A DNA stretch of 24,722 bases, taken from positions 1-24,722 of the forward strand of contig JACPHN010000066.1 in the NCBI GenBank assembly GCA_016188575.1. The letters run 5' to 3'. The notes beneath the pieces were generated by a model that saw nothing but the letters and a program-made list of their open reading frames with translations, was not told where the DNA came from and did no database searches. Every line of letters begins with the position of its first letter. Within the stretch, counting starts at the first letter, position 1. The position numbers were made by a program, and so were the translations under genes. Shown piece after piece: positions 1 through 289 of this stretch. The stretch comes from Candidatus Schekmanbacteria bacterium. GTDB lineage: Bacteria; CSSED10-310; JACPHN01.

Positions 1-221
1 CGTAGGTGCCGTCGGCGGCGTCTCCGGCGGCCACCTGCCATCCTCCCTCGGGGCTCATCCGCCACGGCAGCGTCGCGAAGTCACCGCTCTCGAACGACTC
101 GACCACAGCGAGAGCGACGGTCGGAGCGGCGGTTACGGCGATGGCGCAAACGCTCGCCACCACACCAAGGCAAGCCCCACAGAGAGAGAGAGAGAGAGAG
201 AGACATGACGCGCCGCGGCAT
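1..221 (-). CDS. Secreted surface protein, N-terminus only, out of frame at a CT repeat
   Basis: Not listed as one continuous frame; I read it directly. On the minus strand GGGAGG (232-227) sits 5 bases before ATG at 221-219, giving MPRRVM followed by Ser-Leu repeats encoded by the CT tract (203-181). In the frame of this ATG, translation then runs into arginine-rich nonsense and stops at TGA (83-81). One frame over, the tract continues into a hydrophobic run (GVVASVCAIAVTAAPTVALA) and then FESGDFATLPW, open to the window edge. That is a typical Sec signal peptide with a basic n-region, followed by the opening of a jelly-roll/LamG-like or carbohydrate-binding secreted domain. The two halves join if the tract had one more CT unit or two fewer. 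It could be a phase-variable gene, a decayed gene or a sequencing indel. The mature protein's function cannot be told from about 30 residues. Confidence 0.6.
181..203 (-). repeat. CT dinucleotide microsatellite, (TC)11T
   Basis: Twenty-three bases of uninterrupted AG on the plus strand (CT in the sense of the minus-strand gene). It lies right after the second in-frame ATG (206-204) and encodes the Ser-Leu start of the signal-peptide hydrophobic core. Change by one unit alters the reading frame of the downstream protein. Frame arithmetic gives an intact protein at 9, 12 or 15 whole units, and the copy here has 11. Confidence 0.95.
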
Positions 222-260
222 TCGGACCTCCCAGGACATCGGAAACGACCGCCCACTACG

Positions 261-289
261 ATTGTGCGGCCAAGCGGCGCGCGGCGCAA
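261..289 (-). promoter_or_regulatory. Candidate sigma70-type promoter for the left-edge secreted protein
   Basis: Read on the minus strand: TTGCGC (289-284), a 17-base spacer, then CACAAT (266-261). The predicted start near 254 would leave a leader of about 33 bases containing the GGGAGG ribosome site at 232-227. The hexamers match the consensus only partly. Confidence 0.3.

Follow-up and report, generated by a model that had tools for sequence, protein, structure and literature searches.

Candidate slipped-strand switching in a multigene family of predicted secreted proteins from an uncultured, GC-rich bacterium

The window, that is, the whole stretch of DNA analysed (24,722 nt, the entire contig C180 of a Candidatus Schekmanbacteria draft genome), carries at its left edge a gene in which the start codon and the mature protein lie in different reading frames on either side of a CT tract. 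We interpret this gene as one member of a multigene family of secreted proteins subject to slipped-strand phase variation, with most copies OFF in the assembly, and place the probability of this reading at about 0.83; switching within a population has not been shown. An earlier note on this DNA had proposed a single phase-variable secreted gene. That proposal is supported by paralogues, by purifying selection and by similar tracts elsewhere in the genome, but it understated the scale, which is at least 30 genes rather than one. The analysis is limited by the draft assembly, in which many copies lie at contig edges, and by the lack of raw reads, a second isolate or expression data.

The start region and its CT tract

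The features of the window gene are collected in Table 1. On the forward strand the tract reads as (AG)11 followed by A, corresponding to TCTC...T on the minus strand; it is 23 nt long and 100% pure, and 7 (overlapping) tract matches were counted in the window against 0.01 expected from dinucleotide shuffles of the window. The frame set by the ATG, within which there is an additional in-frame ATG at 206-204 (minus strand), reads MPRRVMSLSLSLSLWGLPWCGGERLRH... before its stop, and the second frame reads ...CLSLSLSLCGACLGVVASVCAIAVTAAPTVALA-VVESFESGDFATLPWRMSPEGGWQVAAGDAADGTY, continuing without a stop as far as the contig edge. Translation of both frames agreed with the earlier note, which had placed the GGGAGG site and the ATG in one frame and the hydrophobic core and mature protein in the other, with the change of frame at the CT tract, and the pure tract does separate the two. 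Its arithmetic, that one additional unit or two fewer would restore the frame, is also correct, and its assumption that both frames belong to one protein is met by paralogues C258, C77, C211, C162 and C153, where they are joined. Early stops downstream, which it had named as the mark of a dead gene, are not found in the mature frame of the window. Only 33 residues of the ConA/MAM-like domain are contained in the window, and because the window is the whole contig, the gene cannot be extended leftward.

Table 1. Features at the left edge of the window (all on the minus strand; positions are those of the window)
Feature	Position	Strand	Occurrence in paralogues
CT tract, 11.5 units, proposed slippage switch, in the signal-peptide coding region	181..203	-	
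Start codon ATG (MPRRVM...)	219..221	-	Common to paralogues of the same start-region type
Shine-Dalgarno GGGAGG	227..232	-	GGAGG-type site in most paralogues
Promoter-like TTGCGC - 17 nt - CACAAT, 39 nt 5' of the ATG	261..289	-	Layout recurs across the family
OFF reading frame as assembled, 46-aa truncated peptide	81..221	-	
Signal-peptide hydrophobic core and ALA cleavage region, other frame	101..180	-	In-frame paralogues C258, C77b
Mature ConA/MAM-like domain start (ESFESGDFATLPWR...), cut by the contig edge	2..100	-	

Two criteria for an SSR contingency locus are thus met: the repeat is pure, lies in 5'-coding sequence well above chance and has a unit that is not a multiple of 3, and an intact start and a conserved protein are joined only at some repeat numbers. 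In the mechanism that we propose, transcription and translation would begin normally at the conserved promoter, Shine-Dalgarno site and ATG, and replication slippage, which in living cells is an inference, would add or remove CT units after codon 6. The CT repeat encodes Leu-Ser in every frame, so that a tract of whatever length can contribute to the signal-peptide core. One length in three would link the start to the mature protein, and the other two would yield a short dead peptide. Each copy would switch independently, so that a population would be expected to form a mosaic of secreted repertoires.

A family of at least 30 paralogues

The genome searched is a draft of 9.2 Mb (about 65% GC, 275 contigs). 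Within it, a search with the first 300 bases of the window gave 32 matches and one with a domain profile 43, and we put the family at no fewer than 30 paralogues; sequence and profile searches of seven other genomes of the same phylum found no members. The copies follow a common plan: a sigma70-like promoter, a short leader, a Shine-Dalgarno site, an ATG, the CT tract, a signal peptide, the ConA/MAM-like domain and a Thr/Pro linker. Three start-region types can be distinguished (MPRRVMS-; MSWRVPS-, with its relative MSRRLNS-; and MTQRVAS-). In nearly all copies a TTGC.. hexamer is separated by 17 or 18 nt from a -10-like hexamer, and the ATG, with a Shine-Dalgarno site before it, follows after 28-39 nt; promoter, Shine-Dalgarno site and ATG are kept in ON and OFF copies alike. 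Contigs often terminate within family genes (C180, C118, C37, C44, C77, C93, C271 and others), and on some of these contigs stretches of 60-140 nt are common to several copies, reflecting either gene conversion or repeat-limited assembly.

Full-length members have approximately 900-1,160 aa (1164 aa in C162, 1129 aa in C211, and 890 aa counted from the tract in C195). They begin with a signal peptide and the ConA/MAM-like domain, followed by a Thr/Pro linker and a FnIII-like region that contains a membrane hairpin; an HExxH motif lies near the C-terminus. In C162 and C211 this hairpin has an Arg-rich loop and is apparently inserted in the FnIII-like domain, an unusual architecture. The label ConA/MAM-like reflects only the look of the sequence, without a Pfam or PDB match; a profile search found no relatives of the domain among solved structures in the PDB, and Pfam found no outer-membrane adhesin domain. 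The motif reads HEVGHAIGAAH in C211, where Pfam reports Reprolysin_5 at E = 1.7e-4, weaker than the curated cut-off, and HEGGHSIHIIH, HEMLH or HEVAH in other copies. As this sub-threshold match in one copy is all that Pfam gives, a protease function is predicted as likely but has not been shown. Secretion is likewise inferred. In three full-length copies the next gene downstream encodes a putatively secreted protein, but these three partner genes have no clear similarity to one another.

Whether a copy is in frame depends on its tract. Where tracts are short or interrupted, 8 of 12 copies have the ATG and the mature protein in one frame, compared with 1/16 of those with pure tracts of at least 13 nt (Fisher p = 0.001), and the sole in-frame long-tract copy, C77a, carries another frameshift. 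This 1/16 is below the expected one-third (p = 0.014, or p = 0.075 with close copies collapsed). In addition, the +1 register is common to 13 of the 15 out-of-frame tracts (p = 0.007, or p = 0.065 with relatives collapsed), the remaining two loci being in the other register, and some copies apparently hold the +1 register through compensating indels outside the tract. We read the shortage of in-frame tracts, together with the register bias, as the consensus of a mostly OFF population. The shared register and the compensating indels would also be expected if transcriptional slippage or programmed frameshifting read through the tract, giving constant low expression with the +1 register as the functional one, and this possibility is kept as a rival. 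We give it very little weight: such a device is needless for the in-frame copies, the +1 register is not universal (two loci differ), the tracts in mod and sspA, described below, are found in unrelated contexts, and collapsing relatives makes the bias less marked. Translation from upstream starts in the mature frame was rejected as a general answer because the leader has only ~30 nt after the promoter, including the Shine-Dalgarno site, and because in subfamily C a +1-frame TGA overlaps the ATG. A GTG or TTG start directly 3' of the tract is possible in a few copies, is absent in others and would lack the basic N-region.

The sequence downstream of the tract argues against the OFF copies being merely dead genes. 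Fourteen of them have, in total, ~3,400 codons open after the tract, to contig edges or natural ends, and the frame breaks cluster in the tract rather than over these codons. One copy, C195, is open for 871 codons to a natural stop and retains its HExxH motif. Most OFF-OFF pairs have dN/dS values of 0.11-0.35 (C195/C133, 0.35; C195/C93, 0.25; C133/C93, 0.30), similar to the two in-frame (ON-ON) pairs (0.22 and 0.39), the exception being the subfamily B pairs with dN/dS near 1. Judged by these ratios, purifying selection still acts on the post-tract frame of copies that are OFF, subfamily B excepted; this satisfies a third criterion for an SSR contingency locus. It is hence unlikely that the OFF copies are simply dead paralogues whose tracts expanded after loss of function, since such copies would not be expected to keep ratios like those of ON-ON pairs, an open frame as long as that of C195 or lesions concentrated in the tract. 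Subfamily B would fit that explanation, as would the in-frame fraction below one-third and the stops, extra frameshifts or fusions seen in several members, outside or beside the tract class. Because some copies carry such additional lesions (C67, C4, C102, C14b, C143, whose frame shifts again towards the gene's end, and C239), part of the family is decaying and forms a pseudogene fringe.

Tract distribution and other candidate switch loci

Tract length differs between closely related copies. The tracts of C118 and C189 have 13 and 19 nt at a flank identity of 97%, those of C44 and C14b 23 and 11 nt (94%), and those of C86b and C77a 23 and 17 nt (94%). Close paralogues therefore differ by 3-6 repeat units, which satisfies a fourth criterion for an SSR contingency locus, the comparison being between paralogues and not strains, and the tracts remain pure despite diverged flanks. 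When the pattern TCTCTCTCTCTCT, a pure (CT)≥6.5 tract, was scanned over the 9.2 Mb, 19 loci were found, and each lies in a gene: in 17 the tract follows the ATG of a family member, one is inside a type III mod gene, and the last follows the start codon of a gene of unknown family on C86. No (CT)8 was found in the seven same-phylum genomes. Among other dinucleotides, (GT)8 occurs once in the genome, splitting sspA, and the two (GC)8 tracts sit in ordinary coding regions whose frames are unbroken. Loss of MutS as the source of instability was rejected, MutS-type genes being present in the genome.

The assembled tract lengths could themselves be wrong (through PCR stutter, polishing or repeat collapse), with the real genes simply in frame. 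Long dinucleotides are the usual site of indel errors, and in a draft of 275 contigs with many copies at contig edges there are no reads against which to check them. The long ORFs of C180 (769, 747, 1409, 706 and 547 aa) nevertheless show no breaks, and most contain complete domains; indels are thus not widespread in the assembly, while single tract lengths could still be off. The (GC)8 sites do not break frames either; the restriction of long CT tracts to these genes would be left unexplained, and a long repeat immediately behind a start codon would be expected to be hypermutable even if its length were off by one. Assembly error is thus improbable as the full explanation, and we retain slipped-strand phase variation as the preferred one.

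Secreted proteins and DNA modification are the typical targets of simple repeats in known phase-variable species, and candidate switches in DNA modification genes accompany those of the secreted family here. At C194:39191 (L135:3191-3206), (GA)8 splits a type III mod methylase between PADLOC model positions 475 and 482, so that the assembled copy is OFF. A type III res gene lies nearby, downstream of the split mod, and the locus is a candidate phasevarion. At C58:10389 (L151:1501-1522), (AC)11 splits a cysteine desulfurase of the sspA/dndA type between model positions 134 and 139, and a SspB/DUF4007 protein is encoded next after it, making this locus a candidate for phase-variable DNA phosphorothioation defence. 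We found no dedicated report of phase-variable phosphorothioation genes in the full text of open-licence papers.

Further tracts lie in coding sequence elsewhere. Poly-G tracts of 11-12 nt, out of frame, are found in the signal peptides of two genes related to the CT-tract family (C144:5640 and C144:10684, L098) and of a secreted-protein gene on C141 (L172). In a further family (C139, C151, C237 and C266), a membrane-anchor segment and a carboxypeptidase-regulatory-like region meet at a poly-G tract of 11-25 nt, which is in frame in C151, out of frame in C139 and C237, and cut by the contig edge in C266. In the C86 gene already counted among the 19 loci (C86:9974, L136:2974-2999), (GA)13 directly follows the ATG (MSIMRERERER...) in frame; its protein has no Pfam match. 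That these loci form a genome-wide slippage system, in which ~20 CT-tract loci together with AC and poly-G loci control the protease-like repertoire, mod and Ssp phosphorothioation, is in our judgement only slightly better than an even chance.

Comparison with known systems

Most known cases of slippage-based phase variation come from host-adapted pathogens with small genomes. One of these, Helicobacter pylori, is a low-GC human pathogen with a small genome, in which the switch targets outer-membrane adhesins at a few loci; in Neisseria, opa comprises about a dozen loci. Simple-repeat phase variation has been reviewed (PMC11868660) and catalogued for meningococci (PMC5084427). The earlier note had pointed to the signal-peptide CT switches of H. 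pylori, and the literature does report CT repeats within the signal-peptide codons of oipA (PMC10564699). As in oipA (and also sabA and babA), the tract studied here lies in signal-peptide codons, where slipped-strand switching would retain the start and change only the downstream frame. The difference lies in the setting, an uncultured lineage of 65% GC with 30 or more metallopeptidase-like secreted proteins. In Neisseria opa, (CTCTT)n is located in the leader peptide (PMC3960869), and the resemblance is to a dispersed multigene surface family with a pyrimidine repeat in the leader of each copy, independent switching and recombination among copies. The repeat is a dinucleotide here and a pentamer in opa, whose products are beta-barrel proteins not known to be homologous. 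The likeness to OipA and Opa is one of mechanism only, and no homology is claimed.

Phase-variable type III mod genes (phasevarions) are known as well, such as ModS of Streptococcus suis (PMC8125046). The mod gene of the studied genome is similarly split by a repeat, (GA)8, near a res gene, at a locus separate from the secreted family. This suggests that the genome applies the same device to a classic target. A search of the full text of open-licence papers found no equivalent system in an uncultured GC-rich bacterium, the nearest match being a gracilibacterium with a 9-mer coding repeat (PMC6851277).

In draft genomes of this kind, automatic annotation would miss these genes or label them pseudogenes. 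If populations prove to be mixed, the bacterium would be hedging both its secreted repertoire and its defences against phages, an ecological role that is inferred. Should the genome-wide system prove real, its family of CT switches in signal peptides would be unusually large, and its sspA would be the first phase-variable one, judging from the open-licence literature. The mechanism is of a known kind (oipA/sabA and opa); what looks new is the lineage of the host, the protein family and the scale. The same solution, in which the genes of a surface family carry a pyrimidine repeat within their signal peptides, would here be reached with unrelated proteins in an uncultured bacterium with a 9-Mb genome of 65% GC.
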